Virus record (IMG/VR): IMGVR_UViG_3300025153_000009
Span: 1 to 47,344 of that record
Direction: 5' to 3' (one strand)
Length of the DNA: 47,344 nt
Source of the DNA: a virus
The position numbers and the translations under genes are program-made. The notes beneath the pieces are model-generated. The model did not search any database. It saw only the letters and a program-made list of their open reading frames with translations, and had not been told where the DNA came from. Positions 13,649 through 42,950 of the stretch are shown one piece after another; position 1 is the first letter of the stretch, and each line of letters begins with the position of its first letter.

Positions 13649-15394
13649 TTAATAAACCAAAACTTTATTGTTACTGTCAGAATTAATCAAGTTGTCCCAC
13701 CTAGCAAATTCGCCTAGTGCCATCACGGATGCAGCGATCCCGTCAATTTTATCTTTACTCTTCGCTTTGTTAGGTTTCATATTGTCGTTGGAATCAAAAT
13801 CAAGAACCACATTCCCAAGCATCCAGGCAGTAACAGGGTTCCCATCGTGTCTCAATGTGCCGTTTAAAATTAACTCTTCAAATAGCTTGGTTGGCGGGCT
13901 TAGTGATGTGTAACCCTGTGGGAAATCCCTAACTATGGAATGATGTTCCCAGGTTAATTTTCCTGTATCCTTGTTAACGGTTGGTGCGTTTCTGGTTCCT
14001 AAGGCATCCCGTAAATTGTCTTTGAATATTTGGGCGCCAAACCGGTCAAGGCCAATGAACATCGCTTCATACTTCTCGCAATCGTCTAGAATATCCTTTT
14101 CCACCTTCCCGTAGTCAGTCGTCTTCCCTGGAGTAGGGATCAGATGTCCGGCATTTATCCAGTCTTGATAATCTATCCCCCCACGTGCCGCATATTTTGC
14201 GGCATCCTCAGCGCAATAGTGCCGGACAGTCAGATAATTGTATGCTGGATAGTATCTTGCAACGGATGTAATATCATTGGTCCTTCCAAGGTCAATTCCG
14301 CCATAGAACTCTGCATCAATGGGTATTTCAAAGTCCGGATCAGCACACGCGTTCCAGGTTTCAGCCGGTATCCATGTGGTTGCAGCGTCCGTCCATAAAC
14401 TAAGTCTCTTGGTTTTGAAATCCACCTCTTTGCTACCAGAGCGAAGCGCCATTGAAAACTCTTGTCTGAGCTTGGACAGGAACGTTGTGACTTCAAGATT
14501 TGGATTTGCTTTTACCCAATTGGCTTCATCCCTCCAGTCGTCCCCCTCATCAATGGTGTAAATCAGGGTGAAAATGTGGTCGAGTTCATACTTTCCTTCC
14601 AACATTCCAATTAGAATCTCTCGGTGTTTGAAACAGGGACCTTGCTTATTGAATCCGGCTGTAGTAATTGCTACCAGTAGAGGTTGCGGCCTGTTCGACT
14701 GTCCGGTACTAAGTGAATTTTTAAATCCGTCATTATCATGGGTGTGATACTCGTCAAGCATGACCAGTGAAGCGTTCAGTCCTTCACTTGTGTCTTTATC
14801 ATGAGAAATTGACCTCATCTTAGCCCGTTCCTTTTTGATCGTAACTGAGTTGGTCAGAATTGTGACTAACTTCCTGAGCTCACGACTATTCTTGATTTGA
14901 TGGACGGCCTCTTCAAAGCAAATATTGGCTTGATCGCGGGTAAAGGCACCAAAATAAACTTCCGGTGCTGCTTCATTGTCAGAGGTTAGGGCATAGTTGG
15001 CTATTCCGGATCCGAGTGTAGACTTTGCATTTTTTTTCGCCACCTCGAGATAAACCTCTGTGAATCGCCTCTTCTTCGTCTTAGTAATCTTCCATCCGTA
15101 AATACTGGCTATCATGAAGGCATTCCAGGGCGACAGCTCGAATCTGATCGTACCGTCCGCGTTTATCCAGTCCTTTGGGACACTTGCGCGTGTGACGGAT
15201 TTAGTAAGAACCAGGAAATCAAAGAACCTCAATGCTTTACTGGCTGCCTTGTCGGAGAAATACCAGCCCTTTACCTCAGATTGCTCTAAATCGCGGTAAT
15301 GGCGTGCAATTGCTAACTTGATAAGATTGCCAACGACAATTTTTCCATCTCGAACGTCCTCCGCATACTGTAAAGCCTTATCAAGAGTATTCAT
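13649..15394 (-). CDS. Terminase large subunit
   Basis: 581 aa, ATG at 15394 overlapping the TerS stop by 1 nt. It is the packaging motor. The ATPase part has a variant Walker A, VAKKNAKST at about 118-126, and Walker B VMLDE at 211-215, with the coupling YHTHDND next to it. The nuclease part starts near GGIDLGRTNDIT (about 365-376), with a later acidic LDFDSNDN. Length and motifs fit the phage terminase-1/HK97-type large subunit. Confidence 0.95.
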   Translation of the reverse strand: MNTLDKALQYAEDVRDGKIVVGNLIKLAIARHYRDLEQSEVKGWYFSDKAASKALRFFDFLVLTKSVTRASVPKDWINADGTIRFELSPWNAFMIASIYGWKITKTKKRRFTEVYLEVAKKNAKSTLGSGIANYALTSDNEAAPEVYFGAFTRDQANICFEEAVHQIKNSRELRKLVTILTNSVTIKKERAKMRSISHDKDTSEGLNASLVMLDEYHTHDNDGFKNSLSTGQSNRPQPLLVAITTAGFNKQGPCFKHREILIGMLEGKYELDHIFTLIYTIDEGDDWRDEANWVKANPNLEVTTFLSKLRQEFSMALRSGSKEVDFKTKRLSLWTDAATTWIPAETWNACADPDFEIPIDAEFYGGIDLGRTNDITSVARYYPAYNYLTVRHYCAEDAAKYAARGGIDYQDWINAGHLIPTPGKTTDYGKVEKDILDDCEKYEAMFIGLDRFGAQIFKDNLRDALGTRNAPTVNKDTGKLTWEHHSIVRDFPQGYTSLSPPTKLFEELILNGTLRHDGNPVTAWMLGNVVLDFDSNDNMKPNKAKSKDKIDGIAASVMALGEFARWDNLINSDSNNKVLVY

Positions 15395-26888: not shown

Positions 26889-28181
26889 ATGGGATTTCGG
26901 GAAAACGTACTTCAACTTCTAAAAGATAAGAATCTTAGCCAGTCCGACTTGGCGGTGATGATCAACAAGCCGAGGCAAAACGTCTCCACTTTACTAAAAA
27001 AGGATAGCCCAAGTCATAAAACCCTTCTAGAATTCGCGAGGGCACTCAATGTTGATCCGGCTGAACTTGTGGTAGATGACACCGTAGATCCCGTCTCGTT
27101 AAATATCCCAGGGAAAATGCCGACGCCCTATAGCAGACTCCTTAGTTACATTCAGACGAAAAGCGTAGACCCCGATGAAGTTTCGAAAAAACTTAATGTC
27201 TCATTCGAAAAAATCCGTCGTGGGGCGATTCAAGGGTTCAGGATGCCGGATGGTTTGATTAATGCGCTTAATAATTTCGAGGACCTGAATGTTACATGGA
27301 TTCTTTCAGGACAAGGTCCGATGCTTTTGGATCAAAGTGAGTTTATCCTGGATAATCAAATTGATGACCCTCAAAAATATTATGAAAGGCTCTGGGAGTT
27401 TCTAGTCATTGAAGAAATTTCGATCGAAAGCTTTTCTCAACGAACTGGTATTCCTAAATCAATCATCATAGACGGGATGGAAGGAAAGGTTGGGGCTACT
27501 GCATATTACGCTCAAGAAATTACCAAAAGATATCCACAAGTAGACCCCATTTGGCTTATTTCAGGAGAAGGAGAGATGATAAAAAAGGAATACCAACGAG
27601 ATCCAATACGGCCAAAAGACGATACCGATAGGTTATATTCAACGAACCTTGAACTTATTCGAGGGGCTGGACGTGTTGAATTTCGTGATCTGGGCTATGG
27701 TCGATTTCTTGTAACCTCCCCGCTTGTATTGCTATCTGACCAAAAACGGTATGTCCAGGAATTTTCAGATAGGGAGTTTATTAAAGAACTACCTCTTCAT
27801 GCAGTTGTAATTGAACAATTACATTTTGGTAAATACCGAAGTTTCGAAACCACCAGAAAGGTCACCACATACGACGTGCTAGAGTTCGATGAAGAAGATA
27901 ACGTCAGTTTTGTTGATCGAGAAATTGATCAGAAAACAATTGTAACAGGAAGGTTAATCAATAATATGGGCGGAAAGAGAATGGCACTCGTTCATCGTGG
28001 GACAGAGTTTGTTGTGGTGGTGAAAGAAGGTGTGTTTTTCGCAAAGACAACCCAGGAAGGTATAAATGACGGAATACTTCAATGTACAATAACTCTTGGG
28101 GGGCAACTAATCAATAAGACTTTTAATAAAAATGACACCTTAGAACTTTACACCATCGAAATAGTCACAAATTACTACTAA
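26889..28181 (+). CDS. Three-HTH phage repressor with an S24-like C-terminus lacking cleavage residues
   Basis: 430 aa, ATG at 26889. HTH1 (1-64) is a clear XRE domain (LSQSDLAVMINKPRQNVS). Modules 2 (about 78-146) and 3 (about 163-232) each end in the Bacteroidota repressor signature, WILSGQGPML and WLISGEGEMI. The C-terminal 180 residues follow the fold order of the element B S24 repressor (GRFLVTSPLV, then a tyrosine/aspartate turn, then IKELPLHAVVIEQLHFGKYRSF). However, the Ala-Gly cleavage site is replaced by DQKRYVQ and the G-E-S-M serine motif is gone. It is probably the lysogeny repressor of element A, possibly controlled by a partner and not by RecA-driven self-cleavage. Confidence 0.8.
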   Translation: MGFRENVLQLLKDKNLSQSDLAVMINKPRQNVSTLLKKDSPSHKTLLEFARALNVDPAELVVDDTVDPVSLNIPGKMPTPYSRLLSYIQTKSVDPDEVSKKLNVSFEKIRRGAIQGFRMPDGLINALNNFEDLNVTWILSGQGPMLLDQSEFILDNQIDDPQKYYERLWEFLVIEEISIESFSQRTGIPKSIIIDGMEGKVGATAYYAQEITKRYPQVDPIWLISGEGEMIKKEYQRDPIRPKDDTDRLYSTNLELIRGAGRVEFRDLGYGRFLVTSPLVLLSDQKRYVQEFSDREFIKELPLHAVVIEQLHFGKYRSFETTRKVTTYDVLEFDEEDNVSFVDREIDQKTIVTGRLINNMGGKRMALVHRGTEFVVVVKEGVFFAKTTQEGINDGILQCTITLGGQLINKTFNKNDTLELYTIEIVTNYY

Positions 28182-33086: not shown

Positions 33087-33209
33087 TTTGACATTGCAAA
33101 TATAGCCTAATTCTCTATATTTGCACATATTTAAATACTCGCAAAAATGAATTACTATGAATTCCGCTGAGTGTTTTGTGTTTTACACTGTCAAAAATAC
33201 TGTCAAATT

Positions 33210-34571
33210 ATGGCAACTGTTGGGATCTATTTTGATGCTCGAATGTCGAAAGAAGGTGAAAGTTATGTGAAGTATGCAGTTTACCATGATGGCAGGCAGA
33301 AATACTTTTCGGCAGGGAAAACTATATCCGAGGACTCCGTTAAGTTTCTGAAAAAATACAAAGCAGGTCTGACCGGCGGTGTTCGCGATAAAGAACAGCG
33401 AAATCTATGGAACATGGTCTTTGGAGATACATTCATCAATGAAGCTGGCAATCAACAGAAATCACTTTTACCAGTCGCCCGGGAAGTCATTGCAAGACTT
33501 GGAATCGGTTTCACTTTTGAGAAATTCAAAAAAGGACTTTTGCAAAAAGATCCGGTTGTTGAAAAAACTGAGACAAATGACTTGATAGCAGATCTGAAAA
33601 GCAAAGCAGATGACTTAAAGAAAAAAGACAAGCTCAGTGATGAGAATCTCAACCGGTCCACTGCACAATCTTTGGTCAGGTTTACCGGCTCAGAGTCTTT
33701 ACCATACCAGGATGTAACCAAGGACTTTTTAAACCGGTATGAATCCTGGATGCTCAAAAAAGGTAAGCTACACCAGGGGAAAGGAAAAAACAAGAAAGAT
33801 GACGGACCGGCCAGTATTACCACGGTTGGAATTTATATGAGATACATTCGGGAACTGTTCAATTCAAAAATAGAATCAGGGTCCTTGCCAGGATTGATTT
33901 ATCCTTTCGGGAATCGTGGCTACACTGTACCCGCTTCCAAGAATATCAAAAAATCATTAACCATTGAGCAGATCGGCCAGATCATTAGCTATCAGCCAGA
34001 ACCAAAAAGCGATGAGCACAAATCGCGTGATTTTTGGCTTTTCTCCTACCTTTCCAATGGCCTGAACATCGCTGACATTCTGGAACTGAAAAAAGATAAG
34101 ATCGATCGAAAAAACCAAACGATTGAATTCGTCCGAACCAAGACCAAAGAAACCGGAAAGGCCGAGATTAAACGAATCCAGATCGATCTTAACCCCATCA
34201 CCCTAAAAATCATTGAAATCTTTGGCTGTAAGGATCCGAAGAAAAAATACATCTTCGATTACTACACTGAAAAGATGGAAGCTGTCAGAAAACGAGAGGT
34301 AAAGTCTCAGCTCATCAAGCTGATTAATAGAAACATGGCCATCATCGCCGAAAAGCTTGAAATCAACATGGATGTTACAACCTACTCGGCCAGGCACTCA
34401 TTTGCTACAATCCTGCTCCGTTCCGAAGCTCCACTTGCTTTCATTTCTCAAAAGCTTGGACATGCCAGTATCACAACAACCCAGAACTATCTGGGCAGCT
34501 TTGAAGATGATAAGGTTAAAAAGTACCTCAGTGCGCTGATTCCTGGTAATTCAGAACCTAACGATCATTGA
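33210..34571 (+). CDS. int: Phage integrase, tyrosine recombinase
   Basis: 453 aa from ATG at 33210; the frame runs back to 33171. The N-terminal 90 residues resemble the arm-type domain of Bacteroidota phage integrases, followed by a SAM-like domain and a catalytic domain with FSYLSNGLNIADIL, FVRTKTKE, TYSARHSFAT (H-x-x-R), LGHASITTTQ and NYLGSF (nucleophile Tyr). It starts about 125 nt from the tRNA-like sequence. It is expected to insert element B there. It converges on the repressor gene with a 14-nt overlap. Confidence 0.93.
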   Translation: MATVGIYFDARMSKEGESYVKYAVYHDGRQKYFSAGKTISEDSVKFLKKYKAGLTGGVRDKEQRNLWNMVFGDTFINEAGNQQKSLLPVAREVIARLGIGFTFEKFKKGLLQKDPVVEKTETNDLIADLKSKADDLKKKDKLSDENLNRSTAQSLVRFTGSESLPYQDVTKDFLNRYESWMLKKGKLHQGKGKNKKDDGPASITTVGIYMRYIRELFNSKIESGSLPGLIYPFGNRGYTVPASKNIKKSLTIEQIGQIISYQPEPKSDEHKSRDFWLFSYLSNGLNIADILELKKDKIDRKNQTIEFVRTKTKETGKAEIKRIQIDLNPITLKIIEIFGCKDPKKKYIFDYYTEKMEAVRKREVKSQLIKLINRNMAIIAEKLEINMDVTTYSARHSFATILLRSEAPLAFISQKLGHASITTTQNYLGSFEDDKVKKYLSALIPGNSEPNDH

Positions 34572-36331: not shown

Positions 36332-36955
36332 ATGCCAGTTAGCAACGTAACGTTTGAAAACAATATGGATTTCATGTCCAGATACGATGATGGGTATTTT
36401 GAATTAGCGATAGTGGACCCCAACTATGGTTTGGGAGATAAGTTGAAAAGCGGGGGAAAGGCTAACTTGAAATTTTCGACGCAGTATAAGGAATCTGGAT
36501 GGATTGATGAAGTTCCGGAGCAAGGATATTTTGATGAGTTATTCAGAGTAAGTAAAAATCAAATCATCTGGGGAGGTAACTACTTTAACCTTCCCGTATA
36601 TAGATGTCCGATCGTTTGGGACAAACAACAGCCCTGGGAGAATTATTCAGCATTTGAAATGGCTTGGAGTAGTTTCGATATGCCTGCAAAAATTTTCAGA
36701 TTCAGGCAGGCTGGTTTTTGTGGAGAAGATAAGATACATCCTACCCAGAAACCAGTCAAGCTTTACAAATGGATCCTAAAAAACTTTGCCCAGCAAGGCG
36801 ACAAGATTTTGGATACTGGAGTGGGCAGTCAATCGAGCAGAATAGCTTCTTGGGATTTGGGATTTGATTATTACGGTTGTGACAATAACACTAAGTTCTA
36901 TCAAGATGGATGTGACCGATTTAATGCTCATATAAAACAACTTACCCTTTTTTAA
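36332..36955 (+). CDS. DNA N6-adenine (or N4-cytosine) methyltransferase, beta-type order
   Basis: 207 aa, ATG at 36332. The catalytic motif comes first as VDPNYGLG (D-P-N-Y in place of the usual D-P-P-Y), followed by QIIWGGNYFNLP, HPTQKPVKLYKWIL and the SAM-binding motif DTGVGSQSS, then GFDYYGCD. This order is that of beta-class amino methyltransferases. It could protect element B DNA from host restriction. The variants DPNY and DTGVGS suggest divergence but keep the key Asp, Pro and Tyr. Confidence 0.87.
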   Translation: MPVSNVTFENNMDFMSRYDDGYFELAIVDPNYGLGDKLKSGGKANLKFSTQYKESGWIDEVPEQGYFDELFRVSKNQIIWGGNYFNLPVYRCPIVWDKQQPWENYSAFEMAWSSFDMPAKIFRFRQAGFCGEDKIHPTQKPVKLYKWILKNFAQQGDKILDTGVGSQSSRIASWDLGFDYYGCDNNTKFYQDGCDRFNAHIKQLTLF

Positions 36956-39934: not shown

Positions 39935-40282
39935 ATGACACAAACCCCACCACTAAAACCAGAAGTCTTCAAAGGGCTTCTGGTAACATATACCACAATC
40001 ATCATGCTCAATGCAATGGGTGATCTCAAAGGTACCGTGCTGTATTCTGCTAAACTTGAAAAAGCACTGGACGAACACAGCAGACTGAAACAACGCCGGA
40101 TCTTCCGTGGTGATGGGTCAGAAGATCAGGCGGTAAACGGTGCAGTGATGGTTGAAAAAATTATTTACGCGGTAACGGCCATTGCTCAGCAGCCAGATCA
40201 TGTTCAGGCGAATTTTGACCGGGACTTGGAAACGCTTATGATCCGGTATGGTGTGAATATGATTGAAATGGAGAAAATATAA
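39935..40282 (+). CDS. Unknown early protein, 115 aa
   Basis: ATG at 39935, 2 nt after the previous stop. All-helical (VFKGLLVTYTTIIMLNAMG, AVNGAVMVEKIIYAVTAI). It ends 12 nt before the methyltransferase start. Not recognised. Confidence 0.65.
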   Translation: MTQTPPLKPEVFKGLLVTYTTIIMLNAMGDLKGTVLYSAKLEKALDEHSRLKQRRIFRGDGSEDQAVNGAVMVEKIIYAVTAIAQQPDHVQANFDRDLETLMIRYGVNMIEMEKI

Positions 40283-40294
40283 AGTAAACCCAAA

Positions 40295-41479
40295 ATGTCA
40301 AATGTGGATCTTACCCAACAATCACCCGTTAGCCTCGCAGTTTGCCCCGGATTACTCGGCATCGAGCGAGGACTTAAAAGAGTATTTCCAAGGCTCAGAA
40401 CCGCCGCTTATGTGGAAATCGAAACCTTCATCGTGGAAAACCTTTTGTCAGCAATGGAAGCGGGTTTGGTGGATGCGGCACCTGTGTGGACGAATCTTAA
40501 AACCTTCAACCCGGATCCGTTTCGAGGCCTCATTGACATCTTATCTGGTGGATACCCATGCCAGCCGTTTAGTCTTGCCGGAAACAGGGGGGGGGCTGAC
40601 GACCCAAGACACCTTTGGCCGTATCTATACACAATTACAGAGACAATTAAACCTCTTTGCTGTTTCTTCGAAAATGTCGCCGGGCACCTATCAATGGGAT
40701 ATGACCAAGTTTACAGAGACCTTCGAAATTTGGGTTACAGAGTTGAGAGCGGAATCTACACTGCGTCAGAAGTTGGCGCGCCACACCAGAGAGAACGACT
40801 TTTCATTCTTGCCATCTTGGGGGACACCGGACGCGAATTTATGGAAAGGAGCGGTTTCAGAAGCGGGATTGATACGCAAGGATGGAGTAAGCAGAATGGA
40901 CAGATTGACAAATCAAGTAGTTCACGCTCCTTGGGGAACTCCCAGAGTTTCAACCAACGGAATGAACGGGACGAATCCAGAGGATCCGAAAGGAAGAATA
41001 GAAGATCAGGTTCTGAGCTGGCCGACACCCGTAACATCGGATGCGATAGGTGGAATTCCGATAATGACACAAGAGAAGTCGGGACGGTGGACGCAAAGAA
41101 GAAAGACCGGACAAATATTCACCGCGAAATTGAAGGATGTAGTAACAAACTGGCCGACTCCTGTAACGATGGACAAAATGGGCCCCAAGACGGACAAAGC
41201 ACTGATCAGGGAAAAGGAACAGATCAGACCAGGCCGGACGAGCTTCTCAAATCTTCGGGATTCGGTAGTACAAGGCACAATGACAGATTTCCAGCCGGAC
41301 AAGGAGAATTCCAGCACGATTGGGAAGAACCGCGCACGATTGAATCCAGCATGGTCTATACAATTGATGGGTACAACTTTACAGAAGATCTTCACCGTGC
41401 CATTGGCAATTCAGTTGTTGAACAAACAGCCGAAATAGCTTTCAGGGATTTATTGAAAAAGCACTTTCCGAATCTCTAA
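40295..41479 (+). CDS. DNA (cytosine-5-)-methyltransferase
   Basis: 394 aa, ATG at 40295. Motif I region SLAVCPGLLGIERGL, motif IV GYPCQPFSLAG with Cys89, motif VI ENVAG (126), motif VIII QRERLFI (165-171) and motif X AIGNSVVEQ are all present. The target-recognition region between VIII and X is long, polar and repetitive, with LGDTG, LGNSQ, LADTR and LADSC. Such LADT-type repeats are seen in phage Dcm-like enzymes. It modifies phage DNA, probably against restriction. Nearly the whole gene is also open in the +1 frame. Confidence 0.92.
   Translation: MSNVDLTQQSPVSLAVCPGLLGIERGLKRVFPRLRTAAYVEIETFIVENLLSAMEAGLVDAAPVWTNLKTFNPDPFRGLIDILSGGYPCQPFSLAGNRGGADDPRHLWPYLYTITETIKPLCCFFENVAGHLSMGYDQVYRDLRNLGYRVESGIYTASEVGAPHQRERLFILAILGDTGREFMERSGFRSGIDTQGWSKQNGQIDKSSSSRSLGNSQSFNQRNERDESRGSERKNRRSGSELADTRNIGCDRWNSDNDTREVGTVDAKKKDRTNIHREIEGCSNKLADSCNDGQNGPQDGQSTDQGKGTDQTRPDELLKSSGFGSTRHNDRFPAGQGEFQHDWEEPRTIESSMVYTIDGYNFTEDLHRAIGNSVVEQTAEIAFRDLLKKHFPNL
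40302..41438 (+). CDS. Overlapping-frame protein with W-[PG]-T-P repeats inside the C5 methyltransferase gene
   Basis: 378 aa from ATG at 40302, 7 nt downstream of the methyltransferase start and in the +1 frame (open back to 40263). Motifs: MWKSKPSSWKTFCQQWKR near the start, GGLTTQDTFG, KMSPGTYQWD, four repeats SWGTPDA, PWGTPRV, SWPTPVTSD and NWPTPVTMD, then NLRDS and LNPAWSIQLMG. These recall phage proteins that carry LPTPTxxD repeats and an LNPxWVExLMG ending and occur with Dcm genes. A random frame would not be open for more than 1.1 kb and carry such motifs. Its function is unknown. It could also be an old methyltransferase frame kept by the repeat. Confidence 0.6.
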   Translation: MWILPNNHPLASQFAPDYSASSEDLKEYFQGSEPPLMWKSKPSSWKTFCQQWKRVWWMRHLCGRILKPSTRIRFEASLTSYLVDTHASRLVLPETGGGLTTQDTFGRIYTQLQRQLNLFAVSSKMSPGTYQWDMTKFTETFEIWVTELRAESTLRQKLARHTRENDFSFLPSWGTPDANLWKGAVSEAGLIRKDGVSRMDRLTNQVVHAPWGTPRVSTNGMNGTNPEDPKGRIEDQVLSWPTPVTSDAIGGIPIMTQEKSGRWTQRRKTGQIFTAKLKDVVTNWPTPVTMDKMGPKTDKALIREKEQIRPGRTSFSNLRDSVVQGTMTDFQPDKENSSTIGKNRARLNPAWSIQLMGTTLQKIFTVPLAIQLLNKQPK

Positions 41480-41481
41480 CC

Positions 41482-41946
41482 ATGCCCAAAACCTGCACAC
41501 ACCCACCATGCACCCGTAACGTTTGGGGTAAAGGTTATTGTGATCGGCACCAATGGATGCGTGCCGACAAAAAGCCGAAAGCAAAACCCGAGCCGGTAAA
41601 AATCAAGATCGTTTTTAAAAGCTTCAGGTCGACGGTGAAGAAACGAAAAAGGATCAGACCCCGAACGCCTGAGCGGGAAGCTCAATATTTGGTATATAGA
41701 ATCCTGAGAGAAGAGTTCTTTTTGAAGTCTGAAAATCAAATGTGTGCGGTTTATCCTTACCTGAGAGCTTGCGACGTGCACCACATGAAAGGAAAGCTCG
41801 GTGAAATGCTCAATGATGTCCGGTGGTGGTTACCTGTGAGCCGCGAAGGGCATGACTGGATTGATCTACATCCGAAACTTGCCAAAGAAAGAGGGTTTTC
41901 AGGAGATAGATTAAGTATGACTGATGAATTAAATGAGAATGTATGA
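41482..41946 (+). CDS. HNH-like / NinG-like recombination nuclease
   Basis: 154 aa, ATG at 41482, 2 nt after the methyltransferase. An N-terminal zinc-like part, CTHPPCTRNVWGKGYCDRHQ, is followed by a basic linker and then CDVHHMKGK, with WLPVSREGHDWIDLHP completing an HNH-type core. It resembles small phage nucleases of the NinG/HNH class. The likely role is in phage recombination or DNA processing. Confidence 0.7.
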   Translation: MPKTCTHPPCTRNVWGKGYCDRHQWMRADKKPKAKPEPVKIKIVFKSFRSTVKKRKRIRPRTPEREAQYLVYRILREEFFLKSENQMCAVYPYLRACDVHHMKGKLGEMLNDVRWWLPVSREGHDWIDLHPKLAKERGFSGDRLSMTDELNENV

Positions 41947-42950
41947 AAATTGGCTTACAGACGAATCTTTTCAATGCGGCACCCAAACAGCCGTTAATGT
42001 TAGCCTATGGCCTTGGTGTAGATAGTACCTCGGTTTTGGTGGAGCTAAAAAAACGCGGGATTCGACCTGACGCTATTTTATTCGCTGATGTGGGATCCGA
42101 AAAACAAGAAACCTACGATTATTTGCCAGTCATAAATAATTGGCTTAAATCTGTTGGATTTCCCCAGGTGATTGTTGTCAAGTATGTTCCGAAGGATTTC
42201 AAAAATTGGCCTCCCTATTATTCACTTGGCGAGAACTGTCTAACTAATGGCACGTTACCATCACTAGCATTTGGATTCAAAAGCTGCTCTCTGAAATGGA
42301 AAGTTACACCACAAAATCAATGGACTGATAAATGGGGCCCTGCAAGAGATTATTGGTCAATCGGTGGCAAAGTCAAAAAAATTATTGGATATGACGCAAG
42401 CGCAAAAGATCGAAAACGATATGCTCAGGCCGTTGGTGTGGAAGATCCAAAATACGATTATTGGTATCCGCTGATTGACTGGAATATGGATCGTGATGCA
42501 TGCAAAGCTTCGATATTAGCAGAAGGTTTGCCGGTCCCTCCAAAATCAGCTTGTTTCTTTTGTCCATCCACCCAACCGGAAGAGCTTTTTACACACAAAA
42601 AGGAATACCTCCGTTACATAGTTGCAATGGAGGCCAGAGCATCGCCAAGATTGACACACATTGAGGGTCTGTGGAGAAATGGGGTCAAAGGAACAAGAGG
42701 TGGAAGTAAGAGGCCTGGAAAAATGACCGACTTTATTATTAGCGAAGGCCTGCTTCCAGAAGAAGAAGTAATAAGCATTCAAATCAACATGCCAGCTGAT
42801 ATAATTCGAAACCAAGAATTGTTTGCAGCGGGTGGAGAAATACCAGAATGGCATGACTTCCTTGAAATGTATACACCAGAAGATGCACTTGACGAATCCG
42901 GTATTTGTGGATCCTGCATAATGGTTTCAAAACAAACACTCTCGAAATGA
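41943..42950 (+). CDS. PAPS-reductase-like PP-loop enzyme
   Basis: 335 aa, ATG at 41943 in an ATGA overlap. AYGLGVDSTS (21-30) is a PP-loop (normally SGGxDS), followed by ILFADVGSEKQETYDYL, KSCSLKWK and a CFFCPS cysteine pair. Such proteins bind ATP and activate sulfur or other nucleophiles; relatives include PAPS reductases and DndC. In phages their job is usually unknown. Being next to two DNA methyltransferases suggests DNA or nucleotide modification, but no Dnd partners are visible. Confidence 0.82.
   Translation: MKIGLQTNLFNAAPKQPLMLAYGLGVDSTSVLVELKKRGIRPDAILFADVGSEKQETYDYLPVINNWLKSVGFPQVIVVKYVPKDFKNWPPYYSLGENCLTNGTLPSLAFGFKSCSLKWKVTPQNQWTDKWGPARDYWSIGGKVKKIIGYDASAKDRKRYAQAVGVEDPKYDYWYPLIDWNMDRDACKASILAEGLPVPPKSACFFCPSTQPEELFTHKKEYLRYIVAMEARASPRLTHIEGLWRNGVKGTRGGSKRPGKMTDFIISEGLLPEEEVISIQINMPADIIRNQELFAAGGEIPEWHDFLEMYTPEDALDESGICGSCIMVSKQTLSK

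Follow-up and report, generated by a model that had tools for sequence, protein, structure and literature searches.

One phage locus, two overlapping reading frames: probable dual coding of a two-polypeptide C5-cytosine DNA methyltransferase

A locus in the genome of a temperate phage is, with a probability that we put at roughly 80% from its sequence and that of its relatives, a single dual-coding gene that specifies both chains of a two-polypeptide C5-cytosine DNA methyltransferase. It lies in an IMG/VR virus record of 47,344 nucleotides, the whole of which is called the window below. The frame 0 product is designated alpha; the +1 frame would encode a second protein, beta, which is most likely the target-recognition and motif IX subunit of the enzyme. 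This role is assigned to beta because other phages hold PTP modules between motif VIII and motifs IX–X, or on a split partner. Both frames are open for more than 1.1 kb, as the sequence-only reading had reported, and the locus has the following features, all on the plus strand.

40295..41479, +, frame 0 ORF (alpha), C5-cytosine methyltransferase, ATG to stop, 394 aa; PF00145 (1e-28), phrog_363 (8e-41), alignment A1
40302..41438, +, +1 frame ORF (beta), predicted WPTP target-recognition modules and motif IX; phrog_1008 (3e-16), stop avoidance, substitution pattern, alignment A2
40295..40307, +, double start: frame-0 ATG at 40295, +1 ATG at 40302, alternative frame-0 GTG at 40304; core ATGTGG at 40302-40307
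40556..40573, +, motif IV, PCQPFS with the catalytic Cys, frame 0; PCQ invariant in A1
40790..40804, +, motif VIII, RERLF, frame 0; the selected frame changes from 0 to +1 just 3' of it
40818..40931, +, +1 module 1, WGTPDANLWKG...NQVVHAP
40932..41018, +, +1 module 2, WGTPRVSTNG...EDQVLS
41019..41150, +, +1 module 3, WPTPVTSDAIGG...LKDVVTN
41151..41339, +, +1 module 4, WPTPVTMDKMGPKTDK...
41340..41387, +, motif IX, LNPAWSIQLMGTTLQK, +1 frame; consensus LNPxWVEQLMGLPxGW
41387..41434, +, motif X, DLHRAIGNSVVEQTAE, frame 0; invariant G/V columns in A1

Canonical C5 enzymes have the target-recognition domain (TRD) followed by motif IX and then by motif X (GNSV), motif IX of Streptococcus phage IPP48, RKLTPRECWRLQGFPD, being an example. 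Frame 0 of the window has motifs I, IV (PCQ), VI (ENV), VIII and X, as judged by Pfam PF00145 and the invariant columns of A1, and alpha thus comprises the large domain with motifs I–VIII and X, the region from VIII to X being low in complexity and occupied by LADT repeats. The TRD and motif IX are not in the same chain as these catalytic motifs; both are in the +1 frame. Beta, of 378 aa, starts with the ATG at 40302 and stops at 41438 (the stop-to-stop frame begins at 40263); its N-terminal half overlies the catalytic domain of alpha, and its motif IX is degenerate past LMG, with TTLQK instead of LPxGW. No Pfam match was obtained for the +1 protein, while frame 0 matches PF00145; at 3.3e-16 the +1 protein matches phrog_1008, named 'DNA methyltransferase' in PHROG, as do 9/9 related records searched. 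The description 'associated' is too modest for the +1 protein, which has the TRD and motif IX, both missing from frame 0.

The open +1 frame exceeds chance. Relatives were gathered both with a frame 0 query, hence unselected for the +1 frame, and with a +1 query, giving 151 distinct loci. In these the +1 frame stays open along 97% of the frame-0 gene (median); the third frame (+2) reaches 16% and the reverse frames 20-30%. The window gene has two +1 stops, at its 3' end, where codon shuffling predicts 10.1 and synonymous shuffling 7.1, and 0/200 shuffles reach so few. Summed over 100 genes with both landmarks, the +1 frame of the N-terminal region holds 0 stops, where codon shuffles predict 370 and synonymous shuffles 272; frame 0 of the TRD, given the +1 codons, likewise holds 0, where 719 and 527 are predicted. 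The shuffles neglect some codon-neighbour effects; the third frame of the same 100 genes is nonetheless as expected (733 stops against 760, and 802 against 741). When relatives were checked for +1 stops, all of the 59 frame-0-selected genes with a located motif VIII (59/59) were stop-free up to that motif, and the +1 stops examined in the window, L001 and other relatives all lie 3' of motif IX.

Codon-position rates show which frame is conserved where. They were taken from 34 disjoint pairs with no locus in common, and the 374-pair set agrees. Over motifs I–VIII the rates at frame-0 positions 1/2/3 are.132/.070/.222, with position 3 faster than position 1 in 33/34 pairs. The order is reversed in the WPTP region (TRD;.220/.095/.100, position 3 slower in 25/32 pairs) and in motif IX (.265/.062/.030; 29/29), and it returns around motif X (.147/.075/.394, position 3 faster in 30/31). 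As frame-0 position 1 is the wobble position of the +1 frame, selection follows frame 0 over motifs I–VIII, the +1 frame over the WPTP modules and motif IX, and frame 0 again over motif X. Neither stops nor a lack of constraint, the two outcomes in relatives that would have spoken against a coding +1 frame, was seen: the rates show purifying selection on the +1 frame over the WPTP and motif IX region, and together with stop avoidance they show that related genomes maintain each of the two frames by purifying selection. Third positions are slower in motifs I–VIII than in motif X (.222 against.394), as expected if the +1 frame matters there too, which alone is no proof. In protein terms, LNPxWVEQLMGLPxGW has a mean identity to consensus of 80% in the +1 frame, against 46% for the same DNA read in frame 0 (100 genes), and in the five closest relatives (L005-L009) identity to the window is higher in the +1 frame than in frame 0.

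The same pattern explains the repeats. The dodecamers starting at 40817, 40931, 41018 and 41150 do encode L-[GA]-[DN]-[ST] when read in frame 0, and the +1 reading gives W-[GP]-T-P, as noted before. Two repeat families had been proposed from them, of which one stands: WPTP, with its LNPxWVExLMG ending, is constrained in the +1 frame, whereas LADT and its variants are the frame-0 spelling of WPTP/WATP/WGTP codons. Because selection there follows the +1 frame, we regard this as one repeat, with LADT as the frame-0 shadow of W-x-T-P.

The +1 frame could also be a shadow ORF, an untranslated by-product of strong conservation in the methyltransferase, and conserved frame-0 motifs do impose some similarity on it, PCQPFS for example yielding a recurrent +1 string. 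This would not account for the TRD and motif IX, where the +1 frame is constrained and frame 0 is not, nor for two loci, L091 and L093, whose TRD is interrupted by stops in frame 0 but open in the +1 frame, nor for the fact that single-chain and split relatives have the same peptide in their main frame. On the strength of the frame hand-over and the single-chain relatives it was rejected as highly improbable.

The beginning of the gene also points to two products. The element [AG]TGTGG, which joins the +1 start to a frame-0 GTG 2 nt downstream, is present in 129/136 loci (ATGTGG in 119/136, with GTG replacing ATG in 10 more). In most loci that GTG is the sole frame-0 start within 40 nt, and just 12 loci, including the window, have a frame-0 ATG at -7. 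The +1 start is therefore the most conserved start of the locus, [AG]TGTGG being kept while other frame-0 starts are mostly absent. The 7-nt distance between start codons, to which attention had been drawn, is real in the window (ATG 40295 and 40302) but is not conserved, and was dropped as the key signal in favour of ATGTGG. Programmed +1 ribosomal frameshifting after motif VIII, yielding one chain of motifs I–VIII, WPTP modules and motif IX in place of two independently started proteins, would suit both the frame change just past motif VIII and the existence of single-chain versions. It requires no open +1 frame over motifs I–VIII, yet 0 stops are found there against 272-370 expected; it leaves the conserved +1 start (129/136) unexplained, and a second shift would be needed to reach motif X. 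We consider frameshifting unlikely.

The arrangement of the same parts in relatives bears on the two-subunit reading. In Mycobacterium phage Seagreen, gp68 is a single chain with motifs I–VIII, five LPTP modules, RLAAAFPEWMMGWPAGW and GNGVCPQQA; gp4 of Gordonia phage Stultus has its PTP modules in a single chain in the same way, as have many IMG/VR loci, L216 and L217 among them. PTP modules thus occupy the target-recognition position in single-chain relatives, and in the single-chain L190, L192 and L216 motif IX and the TRD belong to the catalytic chain. In phage JewelBug, gp81 ends right after motif VIII, and gp80, in the +1 frame, has the LPTP modules and motifs IX and X, with 51% identity (7e-39) to the in-frame region of Seagreen. 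A profile of the +1 C-terminus of the window family matches the in-frame region of single-chain and split relatives (Prob 97.0, 183 columns) and the nested-relative set (Prob 99.3). The latter layout appears to be widespread and mostly unannotated in many unrelated phages, including many actinophages; nested-frame relatives were found in E. coli N15, Salmonella epsilon15, K1ind2, ZCEC5, Burkholderia BcepC6B, Paenibacillus Bloom, Edwardsiella PVN06 and Klebsiella YX3973. No close copy of the N15 gene was found in the E. coli genome set.

Searching by tblastn with the +1 protein retrieved C75C1 and two cyanophages. In cyanophage Ssp-JY39 the +1 frame is annotated, as 'hypothetical protein', and in cyanophage Yong-M2-251 it is frame 0, as 'cytosine-specific DNA methyltransferase'. 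The translations of both frames are identical in these two records (L002, 2001-3116; L003, 1994-3133), whose annotators chose different frames, so that public databases store both products under unrelated names.

Motif X is in the +1 frame, not in frame 0, in L011, L019 and L030. Such a change of frame is what one would expect if two subunits complement each other. L218-L222 divide the enzyme in yet another way, motifs I–VIII, IX and X forming one frame-0 chain; in these loci and in JKSyngboy and Graduation, motifs IX and X are kept in frame 0 and the PTP modules are in the +1 frame. The retention of IX and X in these frame-0 chains, the Pfam-level match of frame 0 to a methyltransferase, and an N-terminal half of beta with no known counterpart would all suit a +1 product that is real but separate in role (for example anti-restriction or regulatory) and merely overlaps the methyltransferase. 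The recognition modules, however, are in the +1 frame even in L218-L222, JKSyngboy and Graduation, single-chain relatives have these modules within the enzyme, and motifs IX and X shift between frames as complementing parts, which makes a separate role very improbable.

The model of the natural single chain of L216 (pTM 0.74) has a C5 methyltransferase fold and superimposes on M.HhaI with Z 22.0 and rmsd 3.3 over 250 aligned residues, along the full length of M.HhaI (model 1-343 on 12-326); its motif IX and X regions are of high confidence and its PTP module is of low confidence. AlphaFold modelled the +1 protein of the window alone at low confidence (pLDDT 58, pTM 0.25), and a sequence search of solved structures with +1 C-terminal profiles gave no credible match. 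As the models of the +1 protein and the PTP module are poor, the DNA-reading role of beta is argued from position and homology.

Two-polypeptide C5 methyltransferases and some nested pairs annotated in GenBank are already known. Multispecific phage C5-methyltransferases of the SPR/SPbeta type have several recognition modules, of a different TRD type, in a single chain; those of the window are on a second, overlapping-frame subunit. In M.EcoHK31I the gene of the small subunit also overlaps in another frame; the +1 protein studied here differs in spanning all of alpha from a shared start, and the arrangement is nested, modular and widespread. According to PMC3404938, M.EcoHK31I (YGGCCR) has motifs I–VIII and X on the larger subunit and IX on the smaller one, a division matched in the window sequence, and its TRD is assigned to the large subunit, unlike the recognition modules of the window, which are on the +1 protein. 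M.AquI (CYCGRG) is naturally split in the variable region, as here, and its distribution of motifs (I–VIII / TRD-IX-X) is seen in JewelBug gp81/gp80, Geodirt and L019/L030. The window differs from M.AquI in that alpha retains motif X and the frames overlap along the whole gene; motif X accompanies IX on the small subunit in L019, L030 and JewelBug. Seagreen gp68 and Stultus gp4 have the same modules and motif IX between VIII and X, but in one frame and one chain. Nested overlapping pairs are annotated as two genes in GenBank for K1ind2 (ORF29/ORF28, 'C-specific methylase' and 'Mte8-like'), fTaEco01 (TE1_031/TE1_032) and Paenibacillus phage Bloom (gp56/gp57); the start of beta lies further into the gene in these pairs than in the window family, and their annotations state no dual coding, constraint or subunit role. 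A literature search without most subscription papers found, beyond annotation tables, no paper on phages that describes the dual coding of this overlap, its frame hand-over or its subunit role. In phage eiAU, several ORFs were noted to overlap and frameshifts were predicted, with no link drawn to the methyltransferase (PMC3025963).

The two-subunit reading can be stated as a mechanism. Alpha, with motifs I–VIII and X, would bind AdoMet and provide the catalytic cysteine (PCQ), and beta would contribute its W-x-T-P modules for target recognition together with motif IX, the parts that make up the small domain which reads DNA. Both subunits would begin at the conserved double start on one mRNA; being made together, they should assemble into one enzyme, presumably as in M.EcoHK31I, and the shared start would balance their amounts, beta being a predicted translation product. 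The N-terminal half of beta may be kept as the price of the shared start or as an assembly domain. The enzyme would mark phage DNA, probably against host restriction, and exchangeable WPTP modules would set the methylated sites module by module. Related modules recur at differing positions among relatives, which suggests exchange of specificity.

Closely related phages differ in form. Stultus (L192) and Geodirt (L191) are near-identical Gordonia phages of the same genus; most modules of Stultus are in frame 0, those of Geodirt are in the +1 frame (annotated gp4) above an unannotated frame-0 ORF, an indel region past the first module shifts the frame, and the dual-coded stretch of about 250 nt 5' of it is 100% identical. 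We lean towards a system widespread among phages in which one stretch of DNA encodes both subunits in two frames over nearly its whole length, a catalytic one in frame 0 and a cassette-like specificity subunit in the +1 frame. In this view phages alter their methylation pattern by exchanging WPTP modules, motifs IX and X pass from one frame to the other, indels convert two-frame and single-chain forms into each other, and the N-terminal half of beta is overprinted on the catalytic domain.

Some loci show further variation. L091 (2932-4582) and L093 (2887-4477) have an enlarged TRD with many WxTP-type modules in the open +1 frame, the frame-0 stops falling within it; motif X is in an isolated frame-0 ORF, which suggests a third polypeptide or another route to this motif. 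In L058 the methyltransferase gene contains, in its third frame, an HNH-endonuclease-like ORF (CxxC...HHPDY...CxxCH; 2361-2930), with the +1 frame open across it. The +1 frame of L182 (1858-3216; Klebsiella phage YX3973) is stop-free from the WPTP protein into a downstream endonuclease VII/HNH-like ORF, so that the specificity subunit may be fused to a nuclease.

The phage context is that of the following genes.

13649-15394, terminase
26889-28181, repressor-like
33171-34571, integrase
36332-36955, N6/N4-methyltransferase-like gene
41943-42950, PAPS-reductase-like gene (phrog_424)

The N6/N4-methyltransferase-like and PAPS-reductase-like ORFs near the dual gene are perhaps part of a wider DNA-modification set. 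The host is probably a member of the Bacteroidota, since the bacterial contigs whose proteins match the +1 protein are mostly from this phylum (Dyadobacter sp. Leaf189, Mucilaginibacter, Chitinophaga); the copy in Dyadobacter sp. Leaf189 is 53% identical.

Long same-strand overlaps, which gene callers do not allow, are rare in DNA phages and frequently met with doubt. The overlap of more than 1 kb described here is backed by many loci, a frame-by-frame pattern of selection and natural one-frame counterparts, and the prediction is that each of its products forms half of a single enzyme. If this is true, many phage genomes are annotated without a methyltransferase subunit or in the wrong frame, both choices having been made in Ssp-JY39 and Yong-M2-251, and the annotated chain alone cannot give the methylation specificity of the phage. 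The family would then be a testable case of overprinting and of gene fission and fusion by change of frame.
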